64,000 nucleotides of DNA from Aeromicrobium sp. PE09-221 (lineage in GTDB: Bacteria > Actinomycetota > Actinomycetes > Propionibacteriales > Nocardioidaceae): the NCBI RefSeq assembly GCF_002174305.1, contig NZ_MIJB01000025.1, positions 1 to 64,000 on the forward strand, written 5' to 3'. The notes beneath the pieces were generated by a model. It had not been told where the DNA came from, searched no databases, and saw only the letters and a program-made list of their open reading frames with translations. Every line of letters starts with the position of its first letter. The first letter of the stretch is position 1. Shown here in pieces: positions 7,288 through 60,779 of this stretch. The position numbers and the translations under genes were made by a program.

Positions 7288-10200
7288 TCAGTCCTCGGGC
7301 TGGTAGCCCAGGTTCGGTGAGAGCCAGCGCTCTGCCTCCGCCAGAGTCCACCCCTTGCGGCGCGCGTAGTCCTCCACCTGGTCGCGGCCGATGCGTCCGA
7401 GCACGAAGTACTGCGACTGTGGATGCGAGAAGTACCAGCCGCTGACCGAGGCACCCGGCCACATGGCCATGCTCTCGGTGAGCTCGATTCCCGTTGCCTT
7501 CTCCACATCGAGCAGCTCCCACAAGGTCTGCTTCTCGGTGTGCTCGGGACATGCCGGATAACCCGGGGCGGGACGGATGCCGTCGTACTGCTCCTTGATG
7601 AGCTCCGTATTGGTGAGCTTCTCATCGGGCGAGTAGCCCCAGAACTCGGTGCGGACGCGTTCGTGCAAGCGCTCGGCGAAGGCCTCCGCGAGACGGTCGG
7701 CGAGCGATTCGAGCAAGATCGCGCTGTAGTCGTCGAGTTCTGCCTTGAACTGTGCCACCTTCTCCGCGCTGCCCAGCCCCGCCGTGACGGCGAATGCGCC
7801 GATGTGATCGGCGAGACCGGAGTCCGCCGGCGCGATGAAGTCCGCGAGCGAGCGGTGCGGCACCCCGGCCCGGTGCTCGGTCTGCTGGCGGAGGTGGTGA
7901 AGTGTCGCGACGACCTCGGTGCGGGACTCGTCGGCATACACCTGCGTGGAGTCATCGACGCGTGCGGCCGGGAAGAGCCCGAATACCGCGTTGGCGGTCA
8001 GCCACCGCTCCTCGATCACCTGGTCGAGCATGCGCTGAGCGTCATCCCACAGCCTGCGCGCGGCCTCACCGCTGGCGGGGTTGTTGAGGATGTCGGGGAA
8101 GGACCCCTTCATCTCCCAGGCGTTGAAGAAGGGCTGCCAGTCGATGTACTCGCGCAGCTCGTCCAGCGGGTACTCCGAGAGCACGTGGATGCCCGGGGCG
8201 GCGGGCACCGGCGGGGTGTAGTCGCTCCAGTCGAGGGGGCTGGCATCGGCGCGGGCATCGGCCAACGACAGCATGGGCCTGCCGTCACGCTTGGCGGCGT
8301 GGCGCTCGCGCAGCGACGCGTAGTCGGCCTCGATCTCCGCCAGCAGGGTCCCGCGTCGCTCGTCGGACAGCAGGTTCGCCACGACGGGTACCGAGCGCGA
8401 CGCGTCCTTGACCCACACGACGGGGCCGTCGTACTTCTGCGACACCTTGACGGCCGTGTGCGCCCGCGACGTCGTGGCACCACCGATCAGCAAGGGGATG
8501 TCCAGGCCCTGGCGCTGCATCTCGCCGGCGAAGCTCTCCATCTCGTCGAGCGAGGGCGTGATGAGGCCGGAGAGCCCGATGATGTCGGCATTGTGCTCCT
8601 TGGCCGCGTCGAGGATCTTCTGCGCGGGCACCATGACGCCGAGATCGATCACGTCGTAGTTGTTGCACTGCAGGACGACGCCGACGATGTTCTTGCCGAT
8701 ATCGTGCACATCACCCTTGACGGTCGCCATGACGACGGTGCCGTTGCTGCGTCCAGCGTCCTCCGCGCTCTGGCCGGCCTCGATGAACGGGATTAGATAG
8801 GCGACGGCCTTCTTCATGACGCGAGCCGACTTCACCACCTGAGGCAGGAACATCTTGCCCGAGCCGAAGAGATCGCCGACCACATTCATGCCGCCCATGA
8901 GGGGACCCTCGATGACCTCGATCGGCTGGCCTCCGCGGTCGGCGATGAGCTGGCGCAGCTCCTCGGTGTCGGCCTCGACGTGGGCGTCGATGCCCTTGAC
9001 GAGTGCGTGGGTGATGCGTTCGTCGACGGGCAGCTCGCGCCACTCCTCGGTCGCCGCCTCAGCCTTCTCGCCGGTGCCCGCGTAGTCGCCGGCGATCTCC
9101 AGCAGGCGTTCCGTGGCGTCGTCGCGGCGGTTGAGGATGACATCCTCGATGCGCTCGCGGAGCTTCTCGTCCACCGTGTCGTAGGGGACGAGGGCTCCGG
9201 CGTTGACGATGCCCATGTCGAGTCCGGCCGCGATCGCGTGATACAGGAAGACCGCGTGGATCGCCTCGCGGACGGCGTTGTTGCCGCGGAACGAGAACGA
9301 GACATTGGAGATGCCGCCCGACACGAGGGCGCCCGGGAGGTTCTGCTTGATCCAGCGGGTCGCCTCGATGAAGTCGACGCCGTACTCGGCGTGCTCCTCG
9401 ATGCCGGTGGCCACCGCGAAGACATTCGGGTCGAAGATGATGTCCTCGGCCGGGAAGCCGACCTCCTCGGTGAGGAGGCGGTACGCACGTCCGCAGATCT
9501 CCTTGCGGCGCTCCAGGTTATCGGCCTGACCGTCCTCGTCGAAGGCCATGACCACGACGGCGGCGCCGTAGCGCCGGCACAGCCGGGCCTCGTGGATGAA
9601 CTTCTCCTCACCCTCCTTCATGGAGATCGAGTTGACGATCGGTTTGCCCTGGATCGTCTTGAGGCCGGTCTCGATGACCTCCCACTTCGACGAGTCCACC
9701 ATCACGGGCACCCGGCTGATGTCCGGCTCGGAGGCGATGAGCTTGCCGAAGCGGTCCATCGCGGCGACGCCGTCGATCATGCCTTCGTCCATGTTGATGT
9801 CGATGACCTGCGCACCGTTCTCGACCTGTTGACGCGCGACCTCCAGCGCGGTGGGGTAGTCGTCGTCCTTGATCAGGCGCCGGAACCGGGCTGAGCCGGT
9901 GATATTGGTGCGCTCACCGATGTTGACGAATAGCGAGTCCTCGGTGACGACGAAGGGCTCCAGCCCGGACAACCGGAGAGCCGGGTGCGGCGTCGCGGGG
10001 ACACGCGGCGCGAGCCCGGTCACCTGCCGGGCGATCTCGGCGATGTGTCCGGGCGTGGTACCGCAGCAGCCACCGACGACGTTGACGAAGCCGCTGTCGG
10101 CGAACTCGCGCACGACGGCGGCGGTCTGCTCGGGGAGCTCGTCGTACTCGCCGAAGGCATTCGGCAGTCCCGCATTGGGGTAGCAGGAGACGTAACAGTC

Positions 10201-45206: not shown

Positions 45207-47639
45207 ATGACGACCCCCGTCCCCACATCGCCCGCCGATAGCCATGACGTCATCCGCGTCCGCGGGGCACGGGAGAACAATCTCCGCAATGTCGATGTCG
45301 AGCTGCCGAAGCGCCGGCTCACGGTCTTCACCGGCGTCTCGGGATCCGGCAAGAGCTCACTCGTGTTCGGCACCATCGCCGCAGAATCGCAGCGTCTCAT
45401 CAATGAGACCTACAGCGCCTTCGTTCAAGGCTTCATGCCGACGCTGGCGCGCCCCGACGTGGACCTGCTCGAAGGACTGACCACGGCCATCATCGTCGAC
45501 CAAGAGCGGATGGGCGCCAATATCCGCTCGACCGTCGGCACGGTCACCGATGTCAATGCGATGCTGCGCATCCTGTTCAGCAGGCTCGGCGAACCGCACA
45601 TCGGCTCGCCGCAGGCCTTCTCCTTCAATGTCGCCTCGATCAGCGGCGCCGGAGCGGTCAACCTCGAGCGCGGCGGCAAGACCGTCAAGGAACGCCGCGA
45701 TTTCAGCATCACCGGCGGCATGTGCCCGCACTGCGAGGGCACCGGCCGGGTCAGCGACTTCGACCTCGCAGCCCTGTTCGATGCAGGCAAGTCCCTCAAC
45801 GAGGGTGCCGTCACCGTCCCGGGGTACAGCATGGACGGCTGGAACGGGCGCATCTATCGTGGTTGCGGCTTCTTCGATCCCGACAAGCCGATCTCCTCCT
45901 TCACCGACACCGAGCTCCACGACCTGCTCCACAGGGAGCCGACCAAGGTCAAGATCGAGGGCATCAACCTCACGTACACCGGACTGATCCCGCAGATCCA
46001 GAAGTCCTTCCTGTCCAAGGACCGCGAGGCGATGCAACCGCATATCCGGGCCTTCGTCGACCGCGCGATCACCTTCGCCGACTGCCCGGAGTGCCAGGGG
46101 ACCCGGCTGAGCGAGTTGGCGCGATCCTCGAGGATCCGGGGTCGGAACATCGCCGAACTATGCGCGATGCAGATCAGCGACCTCGCGCAGTGGATCGGCG
46201 AGCTCGACGAGCCCTCCGCCAGGCCGCTGTTGAAGGCGCTGCGCGAGACCCTCGACTCCTTCGTGGAGATCGGCCTGGGCTATCTCAGTCTGAACCGGTC
46301 CTCCGGAACACTCTCCGGGGGAGAAGCCCAGCGGACCAAGATGATCCGTCACCTCGGCTCTTCGCTCACGGATGTCACCTATGTCTTCGACGAGCCCACG
46401 ATCGGACTGCACCCGCACGACATCGCCCGGATGAACCGTCTGCTCCTGCAACTGCGGGACAAAGGCAACACGGTCCTCGTCGTCGAACACAAGCCCGAGA
46501 CGATCGCCATCGGCGACCATGTGGTCGACCTCGGGCCGCGCGCGGGTATCGAGGGTGGTCAGGTGGTCTACGAAGGCTCCGTCGGCGGTCTGCGCTCCAG
46601 CGACACGTTGACGGGCCGACACCTCGATGACCGGGCCACCCTGAAGTCGCAGGCTCGTGTGGCGGAGGGGGTCCTGGAGATCCGCGGCGCCGATGCCCAC
46701 AATCTGCGAGATGTGGATGTCGACATTCCTCTCGGGGTCCTGTGTGTCGTCACCGGGGTGGCGGGGTCCGGGAAGAGCTCGCTGGTGCACGGCTCGATGG
46801 CGGGACGAGAGGGGGTTGTGGTCATCGACCAGGGTGTGATCAAGGGCTCGCGGCGCAGCAACCCCGCGACCTACACAGGACTGCTCGATCCGATCCGCAA
46901 GGCCTTCGCCAAGGCCAACGGGGTCAAGCCGGGACTGTTCAGCGCCAATTCCGATGGCGCCTGCCCGCACTGCAAGGGTGCCGGCGTCGTCTATACCGAC
47001 CTGGCGATGATGGCTGGCGTCGCCGTGCCGTGCGAGGTGTGCGACGGCAAGCGATTCCAGGCCGAGGTGCTGGAGTACACCTTCGGCGGCAAGGACATCA
47101 GCGAGGTGCTCGCCATGTCCGTCGCCGAGGCCGAGGAGTTCCTCGGTTCCGGAGAGGTAAGGATCCCCGTGGCCCACAAGATCCTCGTCCGGCTCGCCGA
47201 TGTCGGCCTCGGCTATATCAAGCTCGGTCAGCCGCTCACGACGCTGTCGGGTGGTGAACGCCAGCGACTCAAGCTCGCGGCGCAGATGGGGGAGAAGGCC
47301 GATGTCTACGTCCTCGACGAGCCGACCACGGGTCTGCACCTCGCGGATGTCGCGCAGTTGCTCGGTCTGTTGGACCGGCTCGTGGACACGGGCAAGTCCG
47401 TGGTCGTCATCGAGCACCACCAAGCGGTCATGGCCCACGCCGACTGGATCATCGATCTCGGTCCCGGAGCCGGCCACGACGGTGGCCGCATCGTCTTCGA
47501 GGGGACTCCCAGGGCGCTCGTCACCGACGCCTCGACGCTCACCGGCCGGCATCTGGCGGCGTACTGTGGTCGTCTCGCCGGTGTCGACGCCGATCAAGGG
47601 ACAGCGCCGGATTCGGTGAATCGTGACCAGGAGGGATGA
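45207..47639 (+). CDS. Short UvrA-like ABC ATPase
   Basis: An 810-residue UvrA-family protein with two ABC modules: Walker A GVSGSGKSS and GVAGSGKSS, signatures LSGGEAQRTKM and LSGGERQRLKL, Walker B YVFDEPTIGLHP and YVLDEPTTGLH. Zinc modules are CPHCEGTG, CPECQGT, CPHCKGAG and CEVCDGK. At 810 residues it is well below the roughly 950 of housekeeping UvrA, so parts such as the UvrB-binding region are probably missing. Relatives are linked to resistance to DNA-binding drugs. It starts four bases after the VOC gene. Confidence 0.92.
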   Translation: MTTPVPTSPADSHDVIRVRGARENNLRNVDVELPKRRLTVFTGVSGSGKSSLVFGTIAAESQRLINETYSAFVQGFMPTLARPDVDLLEGLTTAIIVDQERMGANIRSTVGTVTDVNAMLRILFSRLGEPHIGSPQAFSFNVASISGAGAVNLERGGKTVKERRDFSITGGMCPHCEGTGRVSDFDLAALFDAGKSLNEGAVTVPGYSMDGWNGRIYRGCGFFDPDKPISSFTDTELHDLLHREPTKVKIEGINLTYTGLIPQIQKSFLSKDREAMQPHIRAFVDRAITFADCPECQGTRLSELARSSRIRGRNIAELCAMQISDLAQWIGELDEPSARPLLKALRETLDSFVEIGLGYLSLNRSSGTLSGGEAQRTKMIRHLGSSLTDVTYVFDEPTIGLHPHDIARMNRLLLQLRDKGNTVLVVEHKPETIAIGDHVVDLGPRAGIEGGQVVYEGSVGGLRSSDTLTGRHLDDRATLKSQARVAEGVLEIRGADAHNLRDVDVDIPLGVLCVVTGVAGSGKSSLVHGSMAGREGVVVIDQGVIKGSRRSNPATYTGLLDPIRKAFAKANGVKPGLFSANSDGACPHCKGAGVVYTDLAMMAGVAVPCEVCDGKRFQAEVLEYTFGGKDISEVLAMSVAEAEEFLGSGEVRIPVAHKILVRLADVGLGYIKLGQPLTTLSGGERQRLKLAAQMGEKADVYVLDEPTTGLHLADVAQLLGLLDRLVDTGKSVVVIEHHQAVMAHADWIIDLGPGAGHDGGRIVFEGTPRALVTDASTLTGRHLAAYCGRLAGVDADQGTAPDSVNRDQEG

Positions 47640-48478: not shown

Positions 48479-49137
48479 GCGAACCGGACACCGGGCCCTC
48501 GTGGGACGTCGACCGCCGAGATGCGCCACCTCGACCGTCCGTCGCCACCGATTTCGCACCGGAGCCGCCTATCGAGCGACCCCGGCGCGTCGCCATAGCG
48601 ATGTGGCTCGTATTCGTCGCCGCGGTGATCTTCGTCGGACTGACGGTCCTGGCCGGGCTGCGCCTCGGCGAGGTACGCGAGGCAGTGACCGCGGCCCTTC
48701 CCTCCGATCTCGAGGAGGACTACACCGCATCGGAGATCCGCCGCGCAGTGCGCGTTCTCATCGGGGCGGTCGCCGGACTCGGTCTGCTGCTGACCGTCAT
48801 GCAGGTCCTCGCCATCGTTTCGGTAGCGAAGCGGCGGAACACCACGGCACGCGTGCTCTTCATCACCGTGCTCGTCCTCTACCTGCCCGTCGCCGCGGTG
48901 GGCCCTTCCGTCCGATCGTTCGGAGCCTACGACACAGCGCTGAGCGGTCTGGCCGTCGCCAGCCTCCTCGTCGCGATGATCCTGATCTGCACTCCCGCGG
49001 TCACGCGATGGTGGCGTCAGCCGGACCGTCGCGGCCCTCTTCCCCTCCTTCGGCCCGAGGATGGGCTGGACATCGCCCCCGAAGGCCAGCGACCGGGCGA
49101 GGGCGCGGACACCGATCCGCCCATCAACCGAAGTTGA
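48475..49137 (+). CDS. Four-helix membrane protein of unknown function
   Basis: A 220-residue protein I do not recognise. A Pro-rich cytosolic N-terminus of about 37 residues leads to four hydrophobic spans (WLVFVAAVIFVGLTVLAGL; IGAVAGLGLLLTVMQVLAIV; VLFITVLVLYLPVAAVG; LAVASLLVAMILI) and an acidic Pro/Gly tail. A charged loop lies between the first two. The start overlaps the DsbA-like stop, so the two are made together. Its 3' end overlaps the convergent iniC-like gene by 14 bases. Confidence 0.8.
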   Translation: MSEPDTGPSWDVDRRDAPPRPSVATDFAPEPPIERPRRVAIAMWLVFVAAVIFVGLTVLAGLRLGEVREAVTAALPSDLEEDYTASEIRRAVRVLIGAVAGLGLLLTVMQVLAIVSVAKRRNTTARVLFITVLVLYLPVAAVGPSVRSFGAYDTALSGLAVASLLVAMILICTPAVTRWWRQPDRRGPLPLLRPEDGLDIAPEGQRPGEGADTDPPINRS

Positions 49138-50623
49138 TCGCCGTCCGCTGCTCGCGACCCATCAGCGTCACGACGAGCGACTCGCAGCTACGCTCGGCGA
49201 TCTTGGCTGCTCGATAGGTCTCGTCATCGAGCAGCGGATTGCGAGTCAGTTCTCGCCATCGGCCGAGATGCCGCGCCGCACTCTCCACCAGCTCCTCGGC
49301 GGAGGCTCCGTCACGTTCCACACCCAATCGGTCCTCAGGACTCGCACCGCGCCCACCCACCAACCGCTCCAGCTCACTGAGGAGCGTCGGCGACAGACTC
49401 AACCGCCGGGCGGCGATACGTCCGAGCAAGCGGGTCTCGGCGAAGGTATGTGCTCCGGCCATATGCTCATCGGCCATCACCACGACCTCGTCGGACCCCT
49501 GCACGGGGTGGGCCCGCAAGAGTCGGTGAACCGCGAGGACGATCGAGTGCGCCTTCAATTCGGACTGTCGTTGAACGAAGTGCACGTCGACCACACGCCG
49601 AAGCTCCTCCAACCCGCTTCGCCGGAGCAGTTCCCTCGAGAGCTGTTCGGCATCGTCGATCCCACCCCGCACGGTCGCGAGGGCGAGACGGATGCCATAC
49701 ATCCCGAAGCGGTCCACCAGATCGGCTCGCACGCGCTCGCTGGGAAGATCCTCATCCCTCGTCGCCAGGAAACGCTCCACACTGACCATCAGCTGCCGAG
49801 TCTCCTCCGGGTCGCGTGCAGCCAGATTCCGGAAGACGCTGAAGTCCGCTTGGCGCAGGGTACTGGCACCGGCGCCCAGCAGTCCGGCAACCGGAACTAT
49901 CGTCTCGCACACTCCCTGTAGGGCCGAATGCTGGCGCAGTCTCTCGACCGCCTCATTGATCGAGACCATGGCGGTCAGGCGTCCCCCGCCGAGCTCATCG
50001 GCACGGGACAGCACCGCGATGGCACCGATCGCCGCGTTGCCATGACGCGTCCGTTCGTGCAGCGCGCGCAGGAACTGCACATCGGACTCGTGCAGCGAGC
50101 GGAGCAGGTAGATGACCGCATCAGCACCCGCCGCACCCTCCTCTGGTAGGAGGAAACGATCGGTCTGATCGGACGCCTCCTGGGTCACCGAGATCGTTCC
50201 GGGAGTGTCGACGAAGGTGAGTCCCCGCACGCCGGGTGCCGGCCAGCTCACATCCAGGCGCTCGAACTCCGCGGGCGACAACCCGTGCAGGGCCAGCTCC
50301 AGACGGTCTTCCTGGCGTCGTGCCGGCAGCAGCGCCGGCGTTCCATCGGCGAGTACCGCTCGAACGGAGGGCGTGGCTCCGTAGTGGTAGCGAGTCACGA
50401 TACGCGTACACTCCCGCGCATCGGTGGGCGCGATCCGCTCTCCCAACAGTCCGTTGAGAAGCGTCGACTTGCCGGCTTTGACCGAGCCGACAAGGGCGAT
50501 GCGCAGGGGGCCCTCCAGGCGCCGATCCAGTTCACCGAGCTGGGCTGCAATGGGAGAGTCGAGCGGGTAGAGCCGGCGCGCAGCGCTAACGAGAGCTCGT
50601 GCCGAGTCCAAAGGTCCTCTCAT
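49124..50623 (-). CDS. iniC: Dynamin-like GTPase, IniC-like
   Basis: A 499-residue bacterial dynamin-like protein. G1 is ALVGSVKAGKSTLLNGL near residues 44-60, the G2-like Thr lies in ECTRIVTRYHYG, G3 is TFVDTPGTISV, and G4 is VLSRADELGG. Length and position match IniC, last gene of the mycobacterial iniBAC operon; that operon is induced by cell-wall inhibitors and its dynamins remodel membranes. The start overlaps the iniA-like stop by ATGA, consistent with a heteromeric pair. Confidence 0.85.
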   Translation of the reverse strand: MRGPLDSARALVSAARRLYPLDSPIAAQLGELDRRLEGPLRIALVGSVKAGKSTLLNGLLGERIAPTDARECTRIVTRYHYGATPSVRAVLADGTPALLPARRQEDRLELALHGLSPAEFERLDVSWPAPGVRGLTFVDTPGTISVTQEASDQTDRFLLPEEGAAGADAVIYLLRSLHESDVQFLRALHERTRHGNAAIGAIAVLSRADELGGGRLTAMVSINEAVERLRQHSALQGVCETIVPVAGLLGAGASTLRQADFSVFRNLAARDPEETRQLMVSVERFLATRDEDLPSERVRADLVDRFGMYGIRLALATVRGGIDDAEQLSRELLRRSGLEELRRVVDVHFVQRQSELKAHSIVLAVHRLLRAHPVQGSDEVVVMADEHMAGAHTFAETRLLGRIAARRLSLSPTLLSELERLVGGRGASPEDRLGVERDGASAEELVESAARHLGRWRELTRNPLLDDETYRAAKIAERSCESLVVTLMGREQRTAINFG

Positions 50624-52467
50624 GCTGGCGTCAACTCCCGACCCGTCGGCGGCGTCGTCGTGAAAGCGGAGGCCCGTTCGCAGAGCTGGCGAATCTCCCG
50701 CAGCTCCCGCGACAGGAGAATCGCGCGGCGGGAGCGCTCATCGGTCGGAAGCGCCGTACCGTCCTTCGCTGCACGTACCGATTCGGCGAGGGATCTTTTC
50801 AGGTCCTCAGCGATTGCGGAGAAATGATCACGGAGGACCCGCTTGACTCTTCCCATCCGGTCACGGGACTCCTTGCCCACCTGGAAGATCGATTCGTCGA
50901 TGAGTCGCCGCACCGCGTGCTTCGCTTCATTGCGCCGCTGCTCCAAGCGCTGTTGGGCATCCTGTCGATAGGCGAACCCGCCCATGACGAGTCCGGCCGC
51001 TACCGACAATGGATTCACGAGGGCCATTCCGGCAAGGCTGGTCATCAGGCCGAACATGAGGATTCCCCCGTAGGAGCCCTTCATACCGACCATCACCTTC
51101 TGGCCGAGTGAGAGACGTCCGGAGCGCACCACCTCCAACCCACCGATCGCTCGGAGCGCTTGCTCAGTGCCGTCGAGGGCGAGCTCGGGGACCGCCGCCC
51201 GGCCATCGAGGGAGAAGTGCCGGGCGACCACCTCGGCCAGATGCTCGCTGCGCTGGTGGGCCCAGACGAAGTTGTCCGAAACCGCTTGGGTCACCGACTC
51301 GGCTAGCCACGAGCCGATGTCATCCCAGACCTCACCAGGGTCGCAGTCATCAATGAGCTTCTCGGCCTCGCGCCCGACGGCACGCAGCCGGTCACGCAGA
51401 TCGAACTCGATGTCCGAGACCAGTTCGGCCGCACCATCGGAGAGGGTCTGCTGCCAACGGGCCGATCGGCGTGTGAGCTGATTGGCGAGGTCGCGCACAT
51501 CTTCGAGCTCGCGCACCACCTCCGCGCCTCCCGAGGTTGCTCCGAGCGCGCGCAACTCGGCCTGCAGCACCATCATCAGGTGCTCACAGACCGCCAGGAT
51601 ATCGTCGACTGCCGAGCGACGACGTTCGGCCAATACGTCCTCTCGGACGACCTCACGCAGGTGCGTTCCCAGTGCGGTCACGCGTGCTTCATCGGCGAGC
51701 GCGTCGTCGTGTTCGCGACCGGCGAGATCGTGCAAGAGCGCCGACGTCGCGAGGAGCGGCACATCGATATCGGCAGCGGCCAGGTGCTCGAGATTCGCCT
51801 CGACGATCGCGCGCCACTGGTGCTGGAGATCGATCTTACTGACGACGCAGGTGACACGTGGACACAAGGCCACCGCCTGGCGGAGGAATCCCATCTCGGG
51901 CTGGGTGAGTTCCTGGGTAGCGTCCGAGAGCATGATGGCCGCATCGGCGTGGGGGAGCAGCGTGAGATTGGTTGACACCTGGGCTTGCGCGCGGCCGACG
52001 CCTGGAGTGTCCACCAGGGTGAGGCCATCGGCCAGAAAGGCGCGCGGCAAACGGACCTCGGCGTGGAGCGAACCGGCGAAACCGGTCTCACCCGCCAGCT
52101 CGGTGACGTGCCGGCGCAGCTGTCGAGGGTCGATCGATGTCCGGATGGAGGTCTCCTCCTGTGCGAACTCCGTGACCAGCACCGCACTCGGTTGATCCCC
52201 CCAGCTGACAGCTGTGGGAACTGCGGTCGCCACGACATCATCGACCGGGCACACCGGTGCGTCGACGAGGGCGTTGACCAAGGCGCTCTTGCCCTGTTTG
52301 AACTGCCCGACGACGACCACCTGGACGCTGGTATCGGCCAGCAGCGCTTGGACATCGTCCATTCGGCCAGTGAGCTCTGGACGACCGTGGGACACGGTAA
52401 CCGATCGAAGACGCTCGACGATCTCGTCAAGTCCGACCGAGGTGCTGGTGGAGAGGGACGATGTCAC
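50620..52467 (-). CDS. iniA: Dynamin-like GTPase, IniA-like
   Basis: A 615-residue dynamin-like GTPase. G1 is VVVGQFKQGKSALVNALVD near residue 52, G3 is LVDTPGVGRAQ, G4 is CVVSKIDLQ. Long helices forming neck and trunk bundles follow, with a hydrophobic paddle (GGILMFGLMTSLAGMALVNP, then LSVAAGLVMGGFAY) near residues 475-510 for membrane insertion. The GTG at 52467 follows GAGGAG by five bases; the open frame continues upstream through the repeat gene but is not coding there. IniA-like in size and place. Confidence 0.87.
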   Translation of the reverse strand: MTSSLSTSTSVGLDEIVERLRSVTVSHGRPELTGRMDDVQALLADTSVQVVVVGQFKQGKSALVNALVDAPVCPVDDVVATAVPTAVSWGDQPSAVLVTEFAQEETSIRTSIDPRQLRRHVTELAGETGFAGSLHAEVRLPRAFLADGLTLVDTPGVGRAQAQVSTNLTLLPHADAAIMLSDATQELTQPEMGFLRQAVALCPRVTCVVSKIDLQHQWRAIVEANLEHLAAADIDVPLLATSALLHDLAGREHDDALADEARVTALGTHLREVVREDVLAERRRSAVDDILAVCEHLMMVLQAELRALGATSGGAEVVRELEDVRDLANQLTRRSARWQQTLSDGAAELVSDIEFDLRDRLRAVGREAEKLIDDCDPGEVWDDIGSWLAESVTQAVSDNFVWAHQRSEHLAEVVARHFSLDGRAAVPELALDGTEQALRAIGGLEVVRSGRLSLGQKVMVGMKGSYGGILMFGLMTSLAGMALVNPLSVAAGLVMGGFAYRQDAQQRLEQRRNEAKHAVRRLIDESIFQVGKESRDRMGRVKRVLRDHFSAIAEDLKRSLAESVRAAKDGTALPTDERSRRAILLSRELREIRQLCERASAFTTTPPTGRELTPA

Positions 52468-52500
52468 GATGGCTCCTCTGGAGGCTGGGGGAAGCTGACA

Positions 52501-52559
52501 CCGGGGCCACCCACCGACCGCTGCGAGCAGAACTCGCAGCGGCCGGAGACTGGCCCCGG
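52501..52559 (-). promoter_or_regulatory. Two-stem RNA structure between iniB-like and iniA-like genes
   Basis: An outer 9-bp stem (52501-52509 with 52551-52559, CCGGGGCCA/TGGCCCCGG) encloses an inner 10-bp hairpin (52518-52527 with 52533-52542, loop CAGAA). Both stems are perfect. The structure begins two bases after the iniB-like stop and lies 33 bases before the iniA-like start. It could stop most transcripts, or protect iniB-like mRNA, giving much more of the repeat protein than of the GTPases. Confidence 0.65.
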
Positions 52560-52561
52560 GG

Positions 52562-54553
52562 TCAGCCCGCGTTGTAATCGAAATCGTTGGTGTACGTCGT
52601 TTCGGGGCTGAACTCGGTCGACGGCGAGTACGTATTGCCCGAGCCTTCCTCGTAGTAGTCGCCTCCGTAGGAGCTGCCACCGCCGCTCTCGTAGAAGTCG
52701 CCTCCGACGGACTCGACCGCGCCCTGCTCGTAGTAGTCGCCTCCGTAGGAGCTGCCACCACCCGGCTCATAGACGTTCCCACCGACCGAGTTGTCCTGCG
52801 ACAGGTCGACGCCGCCGACGTCCACCGAGTTATCCTGCGACAGGTCGACGCCGCCGACGTCCACCGAGTTGTCCTGCGACAAGTCGACGCCGCCGACGTC
52901 CACCGAGTTATCCTCGACCGTCGTATTGCCGATGCCGCCGGCGTTAGAGCCGTCTTCCCAGTAGTCGCCACCGACCGAGTTGTCCTCGGACAGGTCGACC
53001 GCGAGGGTACCGACGCTGATGGAGTTGTCGTTATTGAGCGAATCAGAGATCGCGACGGTGTTGCCCGAGTCTGTCGTGTTACCGGAGTTGCGGCTATCGG
53101 TATTGCCGATGCCGCCGACGTTAGAGCCGTCTTCCCAGTAGTCGCCACCGACCGAGTTGTCCTCGGACAGGTCGACCGCGATATCGCCGATGGTGAGCGA
53201 ATTGTCATCGGTGTTACCCGAGTCGGTGACCGTCGTGTTACCCGAATCGTTCACCGTCGTATTACCCGAGTCGTTCACCGTGGTGTTACCCGAGTCGTTG
53301 ACCGAGTTATCGGACAGATCGACCGCGATATCGCCGATAGTGAGCGAATTGTCATCGGTGTTACCCGAGTCGGTGATGTTGCCCGAGTCGTTCACCGAGT
53401 TATCGGACAGATCGACCGCGATATCGCCGATAGTGAGCGAATTGTCATCGGTGTTGCCCGAGTCGGTGATCGAATTATCGGACAGATCGATGTCGCCGAT
53501 GGTGAGCGAGTTATCATCCGTGTTGCCGGAATCGGTGATCGTGGTGTTGCCCGAGTCGTTCACCGAGTTATCGGACAGATCGATGTCGCCGATGGTGAGG
53601 GAGTTGTCATCGGTATTGCCGATGCCGCCGACATTCGAGCCATCCTCCCAGTAGTCGCCACCCACCGAGTTGTCGACCGTGTTGCCCGAGTCGGTGGTGT
53701 TGCCCGAGTCGGTGACCGTCGTGTTCCCCGAATCAGAGACATTACCCGAGTCGTTCACCGAGTTATCGGAGAGATCGATGTCGCCGATGGTGAGGGAGTT
53801 GTCGGAGTTGTCGGAGTTGTCGTTGCCGATGCCACCGACATTCGAGCCATCCTCCCAGTAGTCGCCACCCACCGAGTTGTCCACGCTGTTGCCGGAGTCG
53901 GTGATCGTGGTGTTGCCCGAGTCGTTCACCGAGTGATCCGAGTTGTCGTTACCGGTGTTCTCGGCATTGTTCTGGTTGCCACCGACGGTGGTCGAGTTGT
54001 CGTTACCGGTGTTCTCGGCATTGTTCTGATTTCCACCGACGGTGTTGCCGGTGTTCTCAGCCTCGTTATTGATCTGGTCGCCACCCAAGGTCAGCTTGCC
54101 GTCACCGTTCTGGATGATGTCCCGTCCGGCGGCCTGAGCGGTGTCGGAGGCAACGGTATTGCCGTGTCCGATCACTACTGGATCCTCCGGGAGGAACTCT
54201 CCGCCGACGGCCAGACCACCTTCGCTGGCGAAGGCTTGACGCACATCGCCTTCCGCCCAGATGTTCTGGTCGAAGTGGGTGCCACCGTAGCTTCCGATGG
54301 CGACATTCTTGACCAGGTAGTTGATCATCTCACCCGGGGTGCCAGCACCCCCGCCGCCCACGGCGACGGCCATCGCACCCGGCACGGCATTGGCGATCAG
54401 GGGCGTCAGAGCGTCGACGTCTGCGCAGGAGATACCACCGAGACCGGCTGCGGCAAGGGCACCAGACGGGTCATCGGCGAACGCATCTGCCTTGGACGAG
54501 TCTCCCAGCAGATCGAGAATAAAGCTCAGCAGATTGCTGGCGGTCACTTCCAT
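52562..54553 (-). CDS. IniB-domain protein with long acidic Asn/Asp/Ser/Gly repeat region
   Basis: A 663-residue protein. Residues 1-55 (LLSFILDLLGDSSKADAF, then ALAAAGLGGISCADVDAL and IANAVPG) match the IniB N-terminal domain. About 155-600 is a repeat field of NSVNDSGN, TVTDSGN, DDNSLTIGDI and VGGDYWEDGSNVGGIGN units, with almost no Lys or Arg, then three 13-residue VDVGGVDLSQDNS copies and a Tyr-Gly tail (GGGSSYGGDYYE). Regular spacing of small and Asn residues suggests a beta-solenoid or a disordered polymer. No signal peptide is visible. The ATG has AGGAG upstream. It is first gene of the iniBAC-like operon; the repeats differ from the Ala/Gly-rich mycobacterial IniB. Confidence 0.8.
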   Translation of the reverse strand: MEVTASNLLSFILDLLGDSSKADAFADDPSGALAAAGLGGISCADVDALTPLIANAVPGAMAVAVGGGGAGTPGEMINYLVKNVAIGSYGGTHFDQNIWAEGDVRQAFASEGGLAVGGEFLPEDPVVIGHGNTVASDTAQAAGRDIIQNGDGKLTLGGDQINNEAENTGNTVGGNQNNAENTGNDNSTTVGGNQNNAENTGNDNSDHSVNDSGNTTITDSGNSVDNSVGGDYWEDGSNVGGIGNDNSDNSDNSLTIGDIDLSDNSVNDSGNVSDSGNTTVTDSGNTTDSGNTVDNSVGGDYWEDGSNVGGIGNTDDNSLTIGDIDLSDNSVNDSGNTTITDSGNTDDNSLTIGDIDLSDNSITDSGNTDDNSLTIGDIAVDLSDNSVNDSGNITDSGNTDDNSLTIGDIAVDLSDNSVNDSGNTTVNDSGNTTVNDSGNTTVTDSGNTDDNSLTIGDIAVDLSEDNSVGGDYWEDGSNVGGIGNTDSRNSGNTTDSGNTVAISDSLNNDNSISVGTLAVDLSEDNSVGGDYWEDGSNAGGIGNTTVEDNSVDVGGVDLSQDNSVDVGGVDLSQDNSVDVGGVDLSQDNSVGGNVYEPGGGSSYGGDYYEQGAVESVGGDFYESGGGSSYGGDYYEEGSGNTYSPSTEFSPETTYTNDFDYNAG
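52785..52901. repeat. Three 39-bp tandem repeats
   Basis: Units at 52785-52823, 52824-52862 and 52863-52901 differ at single bases and encode a 13-residue repeat of the IniB-like protein. Near-identity at DNA level implies recent duplication or slippage. Confidence 0.85.
52902..53960. repeat. Degenerate tandem repeat field
   Basis: Many interleaved units based on GAGTTATCGGACAGATCGA, GTGTTACCCGAGTCGG and TAGTCGCCACCGACCGAG repeat across about one kilobase inside the IniB-like gene. All keep the reading frame. Longer blocks of over 60 bases recur, for example around 53301 and 53397. Confidence 0.8.
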
Positions 54554-54604
54554 CAGAACTCCTCTAAGATCACAGCTCGCCGCGAAATCGACCGAGCCAC
54601 TGTG

Positions 54605-54634
54605 ACGCTATGTCGGACCGTTCACCCGGACCAA
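54605..54634 (-). promoter_or_regulatory. Candidate promoter of iniBAC-like operon
   Basis: On the minus strand TTGGTC (54629-54634) and TAGCGT (54605-54610) are 18 bases apart. Transcription would start near 54598 and leave a 45-base leader with a good AGGAG site before the ATG at 54553. Confidence 0.4.
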
Positions 54635-54772
54635 CGGGGAACAACCCCCTGTTTTCTGCCCTCACCCCTGTGAGCCGGCGGGATTCCAGCGGAGGTGAAT
54701 GAGGGGATGGATTAGGGGATCGGGCATCGTGTACCGGGTGTCGAACCCCTATCGGGGGGCCCGGGGCTCCTT

Positions 54773-54805
54773 TAGAATCGAGGTGATCGGCACCCCAGTG
54801 GTGCC
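54773..54805 (+). promoter_or_regulatory. Candidate promoter and inverted repeat, Hsp70-like/LuxR operon
   Basis: TAGAAT at 54773-54778 is a good -10 box. Just past the expected start, GGCACC (54789-54794) and GGTGCC (54800-54805) form a perfect dyad around five bases, a possible operator. The GC-rich gap 54554-54868 holds these two divergent control regions and no gene; a CCCC/GGGG hairpin lies near 54746. Confidence 0.4.
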
Positions 54806-54868
54806 ATGACGTTCGGAGCACGGGGGTATCGAACGCGACGTTCACGCCAAGCGACCGGGAGCCTTCAC

Positions 54869-56041
54869 ATGATTGGTATCGACGTAGGTGCCACCGAAGC
54901 CACCCACAGTGACTACAGCACTCTTGCTCACGGCGTCCCCGATGCGCCACCGGATCTCCTGGTGAGGGTCGCCAATGATCGTCCCGCCATCCGCCTCGAC
55001 ACGAACGGATGTGAACTCCGACCGGCCCCCGAGATCTTCGCGGATCTGGTCGCCCACGCAGTTCGACAACGACCCATCGGGGACGTGGCACCTACGGCTG
55101 TGGCAGTGCCTGCGTGGTGGACTCCTCGCGTTCTGGATCAGGTCCGAGCCGCGCTCGCGGCACGCGATGTGCGCGTCGCGCTGGTCAACGATGCGGAAGC
55201 AGCGGTGGCAGAGCACCGAGCTATGGGACATGACGTCCCGGAGACGGTCGCCGTCCTCAGCGTGAGAGCGGAGTACAGCAGCGTCGCCATCGTCGAGCAT
55301 TGTCCCGAACAGCCAGTCGCTCGGGCAACGCCCGTATACGTCCACGATGAGGGTGGGACCCGACTCGATGTCGCGATACTGCGGCATCTCGTGGCTGGGC
55401 TGGTCGATCTGGGGGATGAGATCGAGGTGGGAAGTCCGGACACGATCGGCGCGGCGCGTGTGGCCCTGCACCGGTGCCGTGAGCTCCGCGAGGCGCTGTC
55501 GACGAGCGCCGTCGAGTCAGCCCATATCGATCTCCCTGGGGCCGTGCATCGACTCCGGCTCGTGCGCAGCGAGCTCGATGAGCTCGCTGACCCTTGGATT
55601 CGGGCGGTCATCCAGATGACGGACTCGGCGATCACGCAATACGCGGGCCCTGTGGGGGCCGTGATGATCGTCGGTGGTCTCGCGGCGATGCCCATGGTAA
55701 GTCAACGGCTTTCAGCCGGACTCGGGCTCGAGGTGATCGTCACGGAGGAGCCCGAATTCATCGTGGCCCGCGGGGCCCGACGGATCGCCGAGAACAACAT
55801 CACAGCGCGGGGGAGCGAGGGACGGAGATCCTCATTGTGGACCCGGCGTCGCTCTCGTGCCACCGGCAAGCGCCGAAGGGGAGCGCCCACGGCGATAGAG
55901 GCGTCGCCGGTCGCCTCTCGGCGGGCCCTGAGGATACCGCCGGGATCACTGGACGAATCCGCTCCCGAACAGTTGGCCGGCCAGTTCGTTCCTGTCGAAG
56001 CCAGCGTGCAGGCGACCGGAGATCGGCAGTTCACATCATGA
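54869..56041 (+). CDS. Degenerate Hsp70-fold protein
   Basis: A 390-residue protein with the actin-like ATPase fold of Hsp70 but no peptide-binding domain. It opens MIGIDVGATEATHSD, where Hsp70 has a GIDLGTT phosphate loop. The second loop, normally DLGGGT, reads LSVRAEYSSVAIV, so ATP hydrolysis is doubtful. VAVPAWWTPRVLDQVRAAL, ALVNDAEAAVAEH and the adenosine-type IVGGLAAMPMV are kept. A basic Arg/Lys-rich stretch (about 315-345) and a disordered tail end it. The ATG at 54869 gives the domain start. It is joined to the LuxR-type gene by ATGA overlap, and divergent from the IniB-like operon; a sensor or scaffold role is inference. Confidence 0.78.
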   Translation: MIGIDVGATEATHSDYSTLAHGVPDAPPDLLVRVANDRPAIRLDTNGCELRPAPEIFADLVAHAVRQRPIGDVAPTAVAVPAWWTPRVLDQVRAALAARDVRVALVNDAEAAVAEHRAMGHDVPETVAVLSVRAEYSSVAIVEHCPEQPVARATPVYVHDEGGTRLDVAILRHLVAGLVDLGDEIEVGSPDTIGAARVALHRCRELREALSTSAVESAHIDLPGAVHRLRLVRSELDELADPWIRAVIQMTDSAITQYAGPVGAVMIVGGLAAMPMVSQRLSAGLGLEVIVTEEPEFIVARGARRIAENNITARGSEGRRSSLWTRRRSRATGKRRRGAPTAIEASPVASRRALRIPPGSLDESAPEQLAGQFVPVEASVQATGDRQFTS

Positions 56042-57960
56042 CTGTAGACAGCCTTGGCGAGCTCGAGGTCTCTTCGCCCAGCGTCCCGAGCGGTTCGGAT
56101 GCCGATCACAGGAAACTGCTGCTCCACATCGCGGTGAGCTGTCCCGCGAATGCCGGGGAGATCGCCCGCCGGCTCGGCTACCCGGAGACGGTGATTCGTC
56201 GCGCGATCGACGCACTCATCGGCGATGGCATCGTCCATCGGCACGAAGGCACATTGCGGACCACCGCGGCATCCCGCCTGCTCGCCGAGGCCGATCCCGC
56301 CGAAATACAGGAGATCCACGAGCTGGTGCTGGCGGAGCTGGAAACCGAACTCCCGCGGCCGACGACGGTGCTCGCACTCGTGGAATCCGGGTGTCGCGAC
56401 ACGGCATTGCTTCATCACGCGGTCCGGACCGTCAACGAGCATCCGGAGGGAGGGGTGGTTCTCGGCGCGCTGACATCCTTGGCGCATTCCCACGGATACG
56501 ATGACGACGGTGTCTGCTTGCTGCGAGCCTCCGATGCGGCCCGGCGTGGACACACCGACCTCGTTCTGCTGCTCGCCGAGGGCTTGGTCACGGCGAACTC
56601 GGCCGAGACCCGACGAAGCGCCGCGTTGCTGGCCGCCGGGGCCCATGTACAGAGTGCCCGGCTGGAGCGCGCGGCGGCTCTCTACCGCCACGTGAGGGAG
56701 AGTTCCATCAGCCATGAGGGCGCGTGGGGAGTCCTGACTGCGCTGGGCAGAGGCGATCTCGCTGACGCTCGCCGATGGCGCGAGGAGATGGGTGAGGACG
56801 CCCTCACGAGCCACGGCGCGGGTCTCATCGACCTCGCCGACGGGTTGCTCCAGAGCATCGAAGGCGCTGGCGCAGTCGACCGCCTGGCGCGATCACTCTC
56901 GGCATTGAGTCCATTCGCTTCGGATGTGGTTCTCCCCGATACCCCGGCGGCCCTCGCGGCCATCGTGGCGATGAGCCAAGGCGAACCCGCCACGGCAGAG
57001 GTCCTCCTCGATCGTGCACTTCGCGCGCGGCTCGGGGGAGAAGCGGGAAGACAGCGTCATCTGCTGCTCGCTGCATGGGCCCACATGGTGCAAGGCAGAC
57101 TCACGGCCACGGATCGCCGTCTCGATTCCCTCGGTTCGGCGGAGACGCTGGGGGATCGCGAGCAAGTGTTCTACTGGGGCCTGCGGGCCGGGTTGGCACG
57201 GCGTCGCAGCACTCCGCAGGAGATTCGCACGGCCTGGCGTGAGTTCCGTGATCGCACGCTCGGCTTCAACCTGAGCTTGTACGAGCTGCTGCCGCTGGGG
57301 GAGATGATGGTGGTCGCGGCCCCCTTGCACGATGGCGACCGTCTCGATCCTATGGTCACGGAAGCGCTTGCCATCCTCGACGGCCTCGGACACCCCGCTT
57401 CCTGGTCGGTGCCCTTGCACTGGTCTGGGGTTCAGGCGGCGTTCCAGAGCGAAGACCCGGCTGCTCTCCTGCCTCACGCCAATGCGCTCGCGACGGCGGC
57501 TTCGTACAGCTCCTATGCCGCGATCCTCGCTCGAGCCGGCCGCGTCTGGCTGGATGTCCTGCGGCGGGAAGGCGACCTCGACGCTGTGGAGCTGAGCGTC
57601 CGCGAGCTGGCCGCGGCCGGACAGGTGTGGGATGCGTCCCGGCTCGCGAGTCAGGCAGCATTGCAGCATCCTGATCGGGACGGGACACTGGCGATGATGC
57701 AGCTGGCCCGTGAGGTGAGTAAGGGTCATCAACAGACTCGACCCACCGCTCCGGGGGCTACGATGTTGACGGCTCGCGAACTCGAGGTGGCACGTCTGGT
57801 CCTGGAGGGGCACGGGTATCGGGCCATCGGCGAGCAGCTGTTCATCTCACCGAAAACGGTGGAGCATCACGTGGCAAGGATCCGCAACCGACTCGGGGCC
57901 TCCAGTCGCGGCGAACTCCTGGAGATGCTCCATGACATCGTGACATCCGTCGACGGCTGA
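56038..57960 (+). CDS. LuxR-type regulator without visible ATPase motif
   Basis: A 640-residue regulator. Residues 22-75 look like a winged helix (HIAVSCPANAGEIARRLGYP), about 100-560 is a TPR-like helical array, and the C-terminus is a LuxR/GerE helix-turn-helix (LTARELEVARLVLEGHGYRA, then SPKTVEHHVARIRNRLG). I find no Walker A motif, unlike MalT-type proteins. Two DNA-binding ends on one TPR scaffold is uncommon. It is coupled to the Hsp70-fold gene and convergent with the second LuxR regulator. Confidence 0.83.
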   Translation: MTVDSLGELEVSSPSVPSGSDADHRKLLLHIAVSCPANAGEIARRLGYPETVIRRAIDALIGDGIVHRHEGTLRTTAASRLLAEADPAEIQEIHELVLAELETELPRPTTVLALVESGCRDTALLHHAVRTVNEHPEGGVVLGALTSLAHSHGYDDDGVCLLRASDAARRGHTDLVLLLAEGLVTANSAETRRSAALLAAGAHVQSARLERAAALYRHVRESSISHEGAWGVLTALGRGDLADARRWREEMGEDALTSHGAGLIDLADGLLQSIEGAGAVDRLARSLSALSPFASDVVLPDTPAALAAIVAMSQGEPATAEVLLDRALRARLGGEAGRQRHLLLAAWAHMVQGRLTATDRRLDSLGSAETLGDREQVFYWGLRAGLARRRSTPQEIRTAWREFRDRTLGFNLSLYELLPLGEMMVVAAPLHDGDRLDPMVTEALAILDGLGHPASWSVPLHWSGVQAAFQSEDPAALLPHANALATAASYSSYAAILARAGRVWLDVLRREGDLDAVELSVRELAAAGQVWDASRLASQAALQHPDRDGTLAMMQLAREVSKGHQQTRPTAPGATMLTARELEVARLVLEGHGYRAIGEQLFISPKTVEHHVARIRNRLGASSRGELLEMLHDIVTSVDG

Positions 57961-57983
57961 CAACCCGCGGGATTCCGCTCCTG

Positions 57984-60779
57984 TCAATCCGAGGGTTCGG
58001 CTTCACGCAGCAATCGAGCGACCTCGCCACGTGACGTCAGCCGGAGCTTGCGGAGCACATTCGAGACATGTGAGCGCACGGTGGCCACCGAGATCACCAT
58101 CGACTCGGCGATTTGATTGTTCGACCGTCCATCGGCGAGTTGATCGACGATCTGGCGCTCGCGCTCGGTGAGCGATGCGAGCAAGTGGGCTCCCGGATGC
58201 CGCGGGTTATCCTCAGAACTATCGAGTTCGCAACGGATCCTCGCGAGATAGGCCCCCGCACCGATACCTTCAAGCAACGTCACCGCTTGGGTGAGGGCAC
58301 GCCGACCGTCCTCGGTCGCACCCTGCTCGATCAGGAAGCTGCCGAAATCAGCAAGTGTCAGCGCACGCGGTAGTGCCATTCCACCGGCGGCAACCGCTAC
58401 ATCGTATTGGCGCCGAGCGATCGTCGAGTCGCCGCGGGCATGGGCGAGACGGGCGCGGAGCCAGGCGAGCGAGCCCCAGTACTCCTGCCAACGCACCCCG
58501 TGCCACTGGTCCAGGTCTTCGATCAGCGCAGCCGCTTCGTCGAGCTCGCCGAGTTCGATGAGAGCATTGGCACGATAGGTCAGAAAGCCCCGGCGCGTAT
58601 TGTTCAGCCGATCGACGAAGGGCCCTGAGCTCGCCGCAAGCACAGCTTCCGCGTCACCGGCCGCCCGGGCCGCCTCGCACTCGGCGAGCACCGCGAGGTC
58701 CGCCCCGTAGGCCTCCCACGCGATCTGATACTGCAGGCGTGCTTGCTCGAGATGGCGCCCCGGATCACCATTTCCCCGGACCGCCGCGATGAACCCGCGC
58801 AAGGCCGCGAAAGCTGGCCGGGTCTCGACATCCAGTACATCGAAGGCGACCTCCTCGGAGAGGTCGATCAGTGCGCTCGCTTCGGCGTAATCCCCGCGGA
58901 TGACGAGGCAATCGGCGAGGATCAGCCGTGTGGTTCCCGCGGCCCACGGCTCTGCGACTCGGTCCAGTAGCTTGACGCTCCAGCGGGCGAGCCGTAGTCC
59001 GTCCTCGAAATGTCCCAGGGCCAACTCCGCGCCGGCGACGGCGACCAGAGCATCGACTTTCATCGGCCCGTCCGGCAGTGCTTCGATACGCTGATGCAAT
59101 TCGGGCAGGGCCGCGGCCATCTCCTCGAAGGCGAGCATGCGCTGGTCGTGGACCACACGGTAGGCGTCGAGCAGCACGAGGTACTCGCCGGGTGCGACCA
59201 TCCAGCCGAGACGCGCATCGGAGAGCTCGGAGGGATCTGAGGGGCACTGTTCGAAGAGCTTCCGCGCGTGGTCGATCAGGAAGGGCACCACCGACGGATC
59301 CTCCGTGCGCATCGCCATGATGACCACGAAGAAGGAGAGAAACGCGGAGATCACCCGGTCATCGGGATTCTCGGCCGGGCGGGCCAGCAGTTCCATCACA
59401 CGATTCCGAGGGAATTCCTGGCCCACCTGGTGTGCCGCGAGCACGATCAGGATGAACTCCCGCAAGGCGCTATCGGGGAGCGTCTCGTATTCCTCGGCGA
59501 GGTCCAAGATGAGGTAGCCGGTTTTGGCACGGATGTGCACGAGGGCCAGGCTCGTGAGGAGCTCCTGGCGCGCCGGCAGATCGCTGACCAGGCTCAATAC
59601 GGTGCGTAGTACGTCCGATGCGTTGTCGAAACTGCCACGGTCGAGGGCCTCGGCGACGTAGTAGCGCACCTGCTTGTCCAGTTCGTCGGTCCATTCAGCG
59701 GACCCTCCGAGGGCGTGGCGTACTGACCGGTAGCCCGATGTGATCGTGGACAAGGCCCGGGAGACGCTGCGGATGCGATCGGCTTCGATGGTTTCGCGGA
59801 TGGCCTGCGCCACGAGCGCGTGGCGGGGGATCACTGTGGCACCGAAGCCGGACTCGCTGAGCACCCCGGCGGCACTTGGCTCGGCGAGCTCGATCTCCTC
59901 GCCGAGAAGTGCGGCCACTGCGGCGAGGTCAGCCCGCGACATCTCATGGCCGCCCAGACACACGATCTCGGTCGTGGCCCGTGCGGGCGCGCTGAGCGCC
60001 CGAAATGCGTGAAGCAGCGGATTCTCGCCCTCGTGGACGGCACGAATCGGAAGGTCCCAGGTCAGGTGCATACGAGACACTTCATCGGGTGTGAGCTGAT
60101 TGAGGATGGCGTCCAGCCTCAGGAAGGAACCACTCGTGGCCTTGAGGAGCCGCTCACCAGTGCGCACCGACACGCCGGTACCAAGACGATCCGCGGCGAA
60201 GGCCCGGATCTGATCGACCGTCAACGGAGCGAGCAGCTGCACCAGGTCATAGGAGTTATCGGCGACCAGCTCGGTCAAGACCTTGCCGAAGGAGTCCTCC
60301 TCATGAGGGGTCCGCACAGCGCACGCGAGCAGAACGTGTCGCCGGCGTATCCGCGGCACGACATAGCGCAGGACGCGCTGTGATTCCTTGTCTACCCATT
60401 GAGCATCGTCGATGAGCACCACGGCGCCGTCGAGTTCGCTCTCACGAACGCGACGCAGGCATTCGCGAGCCACCGGAATCGGCTGCGTGGTGTGGTCGGG
60501 CTCGAAATCCCAGTCCCCGAAGAGCCCACTCGCGGCGAGGCGCTCGATGAAGCTGTAGGACTCGCCCTGTTCAATCTCGTCGGCGTTGACGAAGGAGGCG
60601 GCCCACGTGCTGGACTCTCGGGCGGCAGCGCCGATCTCGCGCAGGAGAAAGGTCTTGCCCATGCCGGCCAGGCCCTCGATGACCAGAGTCAAGCCGCCTT
60701 GCGCCACCGCCTTCTGCATCACATCAGCGGCGAAACGCCTTCGTTCATGGGCAGGAGAATATGGCGAGTCCCGAAGCAT
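57984..60779 (-). CDS. LuxR/MalT-type STAND regulator (IniR-like)
   Basis: A 931-residue signal-transduction ATPase. Walker A is VIEGLAGMGKTFLL near residue 38, the Walker B-like AVVLIDDAQWV lies near 120, TPR-like repeats fill the middle, and the C-terminus is a LuxR helix-turn-helix (LTERERQIVDQLADGRSNNQ, SVATVRSHVSNVLRKL). Mycobacterial iniBAC is controlled by a similar adjacent regulator, IniR, which senses sugar released from the cell envelope; the same task here is inferred from position. The ATG follows TAGTCT by six bases. Confidence 0.88.
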   Translation of the reverse strand: MLRDSPYSPAHERRRFAADVMQKAVAQGGLTLVIEGLAGMGKTFLLREIGAAARESSTWAASFVNADEIEQGESYSFIERLAASGLFGDWDFEPDHTTQPIPVARECLRRVRESELDGAVVLIDDAQWVDKESQRVLRYVVPRIRRRHVLLACAVRTPHEEDSFGKVLTELVADNSYDLVQLLAPLTVDQIRAFAADRLGTGVSVRTGERLLKATSGSFLRLDAILNQLTPDEVSRMHLTWDLPIRAVHEGENPLLHAFRALSAPARATTEIVCLGGHEMSRADLAAVAALLGEEIELAEPSAAGVLSESGFGATVIPRHALVAQAIRETIEADRIRSVSRALSTITSGYRSVRHALGGSAEWTDELDKQVRYYVAEALDRGSFDNASDVLRTVLSLVSDLPARQELLTSLALVHIRAKTGYLILDLAEEYETLPDSALREFILIVLAAHQVGQEFPRNRVMELLARPAENPDDRVISAFLSFFVVIMAMRTEDPSVVPFLIDHARKLFEQCPSDPSELSDARLGWMVAPGEYLVLLDAYRVVHDQRMLAFEEMAAALPELHQRIEALPDGPMKVDALVAVAGAELALGHFEDGLRLARWSVKLLDRVAEPWAAGTTRLILADCLVIRGDYAEASALIDLSEEVAFDVLDVETRPAFAALRGFIAAVRGNGDPGRHLEQARLQYQIAWEAYGADLAVLAECEAARAAGDAEAVLAASSGPFVDRLNNTRRGFLTYRANALIELGELDEAAALIEDLDQWHGVRWQEYWGSLAWLRARLAHARGDSTIARRQYDVAVAAGGMALPRALTLADFGSFLIEQGATEDGRRALTQAVTLLEGIGAGAYLARIRCELDSSEDNPRHPGAHLLASLTERERQIVDQLADGRSNNQIAESMVISVATVRSHVSNVLRKLRLTSRGEVARLLREAEPSD

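Follow-up and report, generated by a model that had tools for sequence, protein, structure and literature searches.

An ini-type locus of Aeromicrobium with an Hsp70-fold protein as candidate signal-input partner of an IniR regulator without a STAND ATPase domain

How does the state of the cell envelope reach the regulator of an ini operon? The iniBAC operon of mycobacteria is the classic reporter for drugs that act on the cell wall, and a locus of the same kind from Aeromicrobium sp. PE09-221 raises this question because its regulatory gene is coupled to a gene for an Hsp70-like protein. We analysed this locus within positions 1 to 64,000 of contig NZ_MIJB01000025.1; the whole stretch of 64,000 nucleotides (nt) is called the window here. 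Our assessment inclines modestly towards an ini envelope-stress module in which the Hsp70-fold protein serves as signal-input partner of the activator IniR.

All six open reading frames (ORFs) described in a first-pass annotation of this DNA were recovered from the ORF list of the window (Table 1). The minus strand carries the iniB-like, iniA and iniC-like genes, and the plus strand carries the Hsp70-like and a LuxR-type gene divergently oriented to iniB. The order of an IniB-domain, an IniA-like and an IniC-like protein recognized in that annotation was confirmed. The first protein matched the NCBIfam model IniB_NTERM (NF038175) with 53.5 bits at a cut-off of 40, the second matched the solved structure of M. 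smegmatis IniA (PDB 6j72) with 416 bits (E 2e-123) over positions 36-622, and a second Dynamin_N protein, IniC, directly adjoins IniA. Comparison of IniC with its A. piscarium counterpart gave nonsynonymous and synonymous divergences (dN and dS) of 0.13 and 1.12. IniA probably starts at GTG 52467, which is preceded by AGGAG; the long ORF start at 53208 was put down to the high GC content of that frame and discarded. Tandem repeats of 24-162 nt make up the repeat part of IniB, which is dominated by G, D, N and S, contains no cysteine and possibly forms a beta-solenoid or a self-assembling protein. While these repeats are Asn/Asp/Ser/Gly-rich, the IniB proteins of Rhodococcus and Williamsia, some of them longer than 1000 amino acids (aa), are rich in Gly, Ala and Leu. 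Judged by its gene content, the locus is an ini envelope-stress locus; its identification as iniBAC and the coupling of the Hsp70 and LuxR genes were both upheld. A function in envelope stress or membrane repair would be inherited by homology from IniA, a membrane-fission dynamin (PMC6715688), and from IniR (PMC5760070).

Which of the two LuxR-type regulators corresponds to IniR was decided with the NCBIfam IniR model (NF038181, 827 positions). The first-pass annotation had likened the MalT-type protein of 931 aa to IniR. This candidate was ruled out, as the model gave 19.4 bits and aligned at positions 757-822, the helix-turn-helix (HTH), only. The LuxR protein encoded next to the Hsp70-like gene matched positions 282-826 with 292.6 bits (E 7e-87), a score that falls short of the 750-bit equivalog cut-off since the N-terminal third is missing. 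Since the match starts only at position 282, the Hsp70-coupled protein is an IniR without the N-terminal signal-transduction ATPase (STAND) domain. A Walker A motif was not found in this protein, nor did a STAND profile made from relatives match it. Moreover, the Hsp70-like gene overlaps its start codon (ATG 56038) by 4 nt (ATGA), leaving no room for a STAND domain upstream. AlphaFold predicted a confident winged helix, a TPR superhelix and a LuxR HTH (AF2 pLDDT 92.6). A Foldseek search with this model returned only generic TPR proteins with low TM-scores; that MalT was not among them carries no weight. Among the loci scanned, a counterpart of the 931-aa regulator at the same place occurs only in A. 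piscarium. It is a generic LAL regulator, which we left out of the module; the notion of two LuxR regulators in one module was given up with it.

The Hsp70-like protein is degenerate, as had been noted earlier together with its coupling to the LuxR gene. It matched the Pfam HSP70 family with 34 bits, and none of the NCBIfam models reached its cut-off on the members tested. AlphaFold modelling from an alignment with 52 relatives yielded an Hsp70 nucleotide-binding domain (NBD) up to residue ~331 (pLDDT 85), whose actin-like fold was confirmed by structural matches to the NBD of DnaK (Z 29.6) and to Ssz1 (Z 29.1). The phosphate-2 motif DLGGGTFD reads SVRAEYSS in this protein. A substrate-binding domain is absent, since the chain ends ~60-80 residues past the NBD in a basic, disordered tail, in this lineage without a transmembrane segment. 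The motif is intact in relatives from Arthrobacter, Pseudonocardia and Agromyces and degenerate in mycobacteria and Rhodococcus. The end of the domain is complete in 99 relatives, of which 81 displayed a transmembrane-like segment after it followed by a Pro/Thr/Ser-rich tail, and several others were just under the threshold; this arrangement suggests an N-in/C-out topology. A short group without anchor comprises the proteins of the window, A. piscarium and relatives in Leucobacter, Gulosibacter and Microbacterium, the latter three with 39-46% identity. A dN of 0.31 at a dS of 1.41 against A. piscarium indicates that the protein is under purifying selection. A Nocardioidaceae protein encoded outside ini loci (L022, 8082-10820) combines an intact Hsp70 NBD with a transmembrane segment and an outer WD40-like (PD40) region, the Hsp70 domain being the cytoplasmic half of a membrane protein.

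The linkage of the Hsp70-like gene to iniR was followed across the class. IniA was searched for in 394 genomes, which revealed 45 carriers, and a scan of a genome collection added 80 named loci. Of 49 Aeromicrobium genomes, 5 encode IniA, and the same 5, with no others, encode IniR and the Hsp70-like protein. Of the 93 IniR genes recovered near-complete across the class, 89 share their locus with an Hsp70-like gene other than dnaK; the remaining four lie on contigs too short to judge, so that none is clearly without one. Co-conservation of the Hsp70-like and IniR genes with the dynamins, set beforehand as the check on the module, was therefore borne out, by the shared set of Aeromicrobium genomes and by the presence of the Hsp70-like gene in 89 of 89 judgeable IniR loci. 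The 4.0-Mb genome of our strain contains two Hsp70-family genes only, dnaK and the one described here, and genomes of the same genus have one to three such matches per 3-4 Mb, usually dnaK alone. At this density chance linkage would be expected in ~1 in 100 cases. In 75 of ~101 copies, the Hsp70-like gene lies directly upstream of iniR in the same direction. Two Hoyosella loci with iniA and iniC lack both iniR and the Hsp70-like gene. All these data identify the Hsp70-like gene as a regular, mostly membrane-anchored member of the locus across the class. The earlier description of a locus 'expanded with' an Hsp70 protein thus has to be turned around, as it is the losses (STAND domain, anchor and phosphate motif) that are unusual here. 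Most Mycobacterium genomes have one to seven members of the Hsp70-like family, which therefore extends beyond the ini locus there. Four mycobacterial loci (L078, L095, L097 and L098) carry a second Hsp70-like gene behind iniR or iniC in addition to the one that precedes iniR. IniA of four loci from Leucobacter, Gulosibacter and Microbacterium (L101-L104) shares 57-65% with the window protein, compared to ~50% for other Aeromicrobium IniA proteins, suggesting horizontal transfer of the whole locus.

The STAND domain is absent from 29 of the 93 IniR proteins. In the loci of these proteins, 49-240 nt separate the Hsp70-like stop codon from the IniR core, compared to mostly 596-756 nt in the others. 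On the tree, the STAND state changes nine times under both the LG+G4 and the LG+C20 model, of which 8 and 6 changes, respectively, are forced by well-supported branches. The root of the tree was not inferred, and it is our reading that the changes are losses rather than gains, that is, that IniR lost its ATPase repeatedly, about nine times. Some IniRs retain the STAND domain with the Walker A motif gone. In L114, a metagenome-assembled genome, a clean in-frame STAND deletion compared to close sisters is accompanied by a retained Hsp70-like gene. Where upstream DNA is visible, the Hsp70-like gene directly precedes all 28 STAND-less IniRs and 47 of 62 STAND-bearing ones (Fisher 0.004). An apparent Hsp70-IniR fusion in Arthrobacter sp. 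RIT-PI-e (L146) was not used as evidence. It is one open frame, in which the Pro-rich tail is scrambled shortly ahead of an in-frame Met at a position suitable for the start of IniR; we took it as a frameshift because of this scrambled tail and because a fusion would place IniR outside the membrane.

The DNA upstream of iniB contains a recurrent motif. CCCCTA in forward orientation was found at 172 sites in 113 regions, while ~8 were expected, and at least one site is present in 92 of the 113. The sites cluster 120-180 nt before the iniB start, often in tandem, with the consensus ATCCCCTAAT/C. Of 92 loci with IniR, 69 have strict sites, compared to 2 of 16 loci without it (p 3e-6), some of the latter being cut by contig ends; CCCCTA is retained in 28 of 29 STAND-less loci. 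In the window, the tandem ATCCCCTAATC / ATCCCCTCATT sequence is its only occurrence in the genome. M. tuberculosis IniR binds just upstream of iniBAC (PMC5760070). We propose the tandem ATCCCCTAA boxes as the candidate IniR operator. A single box facing the opposite way, AACCCCTAT, precedes the Hsp70-like/iniR operon and possibly serves its autoregulation. These boxes can be likened to the MalT box, which contains GGGGAT. A scan for consensus promoters and terminators yielded nothing above shuffled sequences and did not recover the iniB promoter candidate listed in Table 1. The gap between iniB and iniA folds more stably than shuffled sequences (z < -2) in 77 of 84 loci compared to 10 of 110 control stretches. 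Its hairpin is probably an attenuator or processing site that sets the level of IniB above that of IniA and IniC.

Taken together, we propose that the activator IniR, which combines a TPR superhelix with a LuxR-type HTH, would turn on iniB-iniA-iniC from the tandem boxes. The hairpin would keep the level of the repeat protein IniB above that of the dynamins IniA and IniC, which would reshape or cut plasma membrane that has been damaged. The Hsp70-fold protein, whose gene precedes iniR in a shared operon, would contact IniR physically and control it as its signal-input partner. According to Boot et al. (PMC5760070), IniR is the activator of iniBAC, and the sensing of trehalose seems to take place outside the cytoplasmic membrane. 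Sensing there calls for a membrane-spanning link. In most relatives, a single-pass Hsp70-like protein with a cytoplasmic NBD, a linker, a transmembrane helix and a Pro/Thr-rich outer tail could report the envelope state to IniR. In the present lineage, IniR is without ATPase and the Hsp70-like protein without anchor and phosphate motif, so that the switch would probably consist in a pseudo-Hsp70 holding and releasing IniR independently of nucleotide. A broader form of this proposal is more tentative, and we consider it possible though rather short of probable. It holds that the anchored Hsp70-fold protein is the transmembrane transducer of the ini response across Actinomycetia and repeatedly made the STAND ATPase of the activator dispensable, with a soluble, ATP-free pseudo-Hsp70 as the form found here.

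Several observations weigh against a pairing of the Hsp70-fold protein with IniR. Two loci (L084 and L085) keep the Hsp70-like gene together with iniA and iniC in the absence of IniR. In M. tuberculosis and M. marinum, iniR apparently functions with no Hsp70-like gene next to it, since Boot et al. give a dnaK-like gene only for M. smegmatis (PMC5760070). The association between STAND loss and adjacency was not significant in phylogenetically independent pairs. An intact phosphate-2 motif was no commoner beside STAND-less IniRs (12/28) than beside the others (24/62, dnaK rows removed); with motif and STAND state uncorrelated, a simple replacement of the STAND ATPase by that of the Hsp70-like protein was rejected. 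Finally, a mirror-tree comparison displayed no excess covariation of the Hsp70-like protein with IniR once IniA and IniC were controlled for (partial correlation 0.09).

The corresponding partial distance correlations of 0.39 with IniC and 0.32 with IniA would better fit an Hsp70-fold protein that belongs to the effector arm. In that case it would be a membrane-anchored adaptor, soluble in this lineage, through which IniA/IniC are loaded, clustered or disassembled on the membrane, and its co-transcription with iniR would be incidental. The run of Hsp70-like gene, ORF, iniA and iniC in L084, the similar set in L085 and the Hsp70-like copies directly after iniC in L078, L080 and L097 point in the same direction. 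Distances between IniR proteins may be near saturation, which would weaken the partial correlation. Moreover, iniR immediately follows three quarters of the Hsp70-like copies, in many cases after a short gap, and IniRs that have lost their ATPase are confined to this arrangement. We regard a role in the effector arm as less likely, yet as the main alternative. The ORF of the L084 locus (7611-8435), situated between the Hsp70-like gene and iniA, encodes a 274-aa protein of no known family.

That the Hsp70-like gene of this lineage is a decaying relic without a role, as its lost transmembrane segment and phosphate-2 motif might suggest, is quite improbable given its dN and dS values, its confident NBD fold and the retention of the short form in Leucobacter, Gulosibacter and Microbacterium. 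An anti-phage system of dynamin type (LeoABC-like), to which the PADLOC LeoA model matches of IniA (E 4e-13) and IniC (E 2e-10), the patchy presence in Aeromicrobium and the occurrence of Hsp70 with paired GTPases in conflict systems (PMC7159879) could point, is less probable still, because the LeoA and LeoBC profiles reach 47 and 33 bits on IniA, probably a generic dynamin match compared to its 416 bits to IniA itself, because the locus has a dedicated IniR-type regulator and a candidate operator, and because neither dynamin nor IniA appears in the paper on the DO-GTPase systems, which contain GAP1.

Several known systems come close to this locus or its proteins. The mycobacterial iniR/iniBAC locus (Rv0339c-Rv0343; PMC5760070, PMC6715688) shares the order of IniB-domain protein, IniA and IniC and a regulator adjoining the operon, and its IniR is homologous over the TPR and HTH regions. 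The Aeromicrobium locus differs from it by a STAND-less IniR, an Hsp70-like gene before IniR and Asn/Asp/Ser-rich IniB repeats. In M. smegmatis, a dnaK-like gene beside (downstream of) iniR was reported as a species difference (PMC5760070); the genes described here likewise adjoin iniR but are mostly upstream, class-wide and mostly membrane-anchored. In the open-access literature, this one sentence on M. smegmatis is the only description of the partner that we found. The operon is therefore of a known kind, while its class-wide, mostly anchored and mostly upstream Hsp70-like partner has largely been overlooked. E. coli MalT resembles IniR in joining a TPR sensor to a LuxR HTH and additionally has a STAND domain; IniR of the window has no ATPase domain and a partner protein in its place. 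Atypical Hsp70s of the Ssz1 type act as partner of another protein and not as stand-alone chaperones. The Hsp70-like protein shares the NBD fold with Ssz1 and other atypical Hsp70s, but it lacks the substrate-binding domain, has lost the phosphate-2 motif and is encoded with a transcription factor. DO-GTPase/GAP1 conflict systems (PMC7159879) also combine paired GTPases with an HSP70 without peptide-binding domain, although their GTPases are of another family and they contain GAP1 and FNIII proteins and variable effectors.

Since an Hsp70-like gene lies beside iniR in almost every actinobacterial ini locus, its product, mostly membrane-spanning and so far little studied, is a direct candidate for the signal link from the membrane to IniR. 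The repeated ATPase loss makes the role of the STAND ATPase testable by comparing natural pairs, and the ATCCCCTAA candidate operator is a ready reporter. The genus Aeromicrobium is not known to produce mycolates; the locus suggests that the ini system is not tied to mycolic acids.

Table 1. Positions of genes and putative regulatory elements of the ini locus in the window
Feature	Position	Strand	Remarks
IniC-like dynamin, 499 aa	49124..50623	-	Dynamin_N 55.6 bits; adjoins IniA in every relative
IniA orthologue, dynamin-like, ~615 aa	50620..52467	-	PDB 6j72 E 2e-123; PF00350 76 bits
iniB-iniA hairpin	52493..52568	-	-74.3 kcal/mol, z -6.7
IniB-like protein, 663 aa	52562..54553	-	IniB N-terminal domain and long Asn/Asp/Ser/Gly repeats
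iniB promoter candidate, TTGGTC-18-TAGCGT	54605..54634	-	Putative, read from sequence
Candidate IniR operator, tandem ATCCCCTAATC / ATCCCCTCATT	54698..54720	-	~150 nt before iniB
Single opposite-facing box AACCCCTAT	54744..54752	+	Before Hsp70-like/iniR operon; also in A. piscarium
Hsp70-fold protein, 390 aa	54869..56041	+	Likely start ATG 54869; no substrate-binding domain
STAND-less IniR, 640 aa	56038..57960	+	Winged helix, TPR superhelix, LuxR HTH; NF038181 E 7e-87
LAL (MalT-type) regulator, 931 aa	57984..60779	-	AAA_16 and GerE; convergent; outside conserved module

Elsewhere in the window, positions 45207-47639 encode an ABC ATPase of 810 aa with a DnaJ-type CXXCXGXG stretch, which is UvrA-like in make-up.

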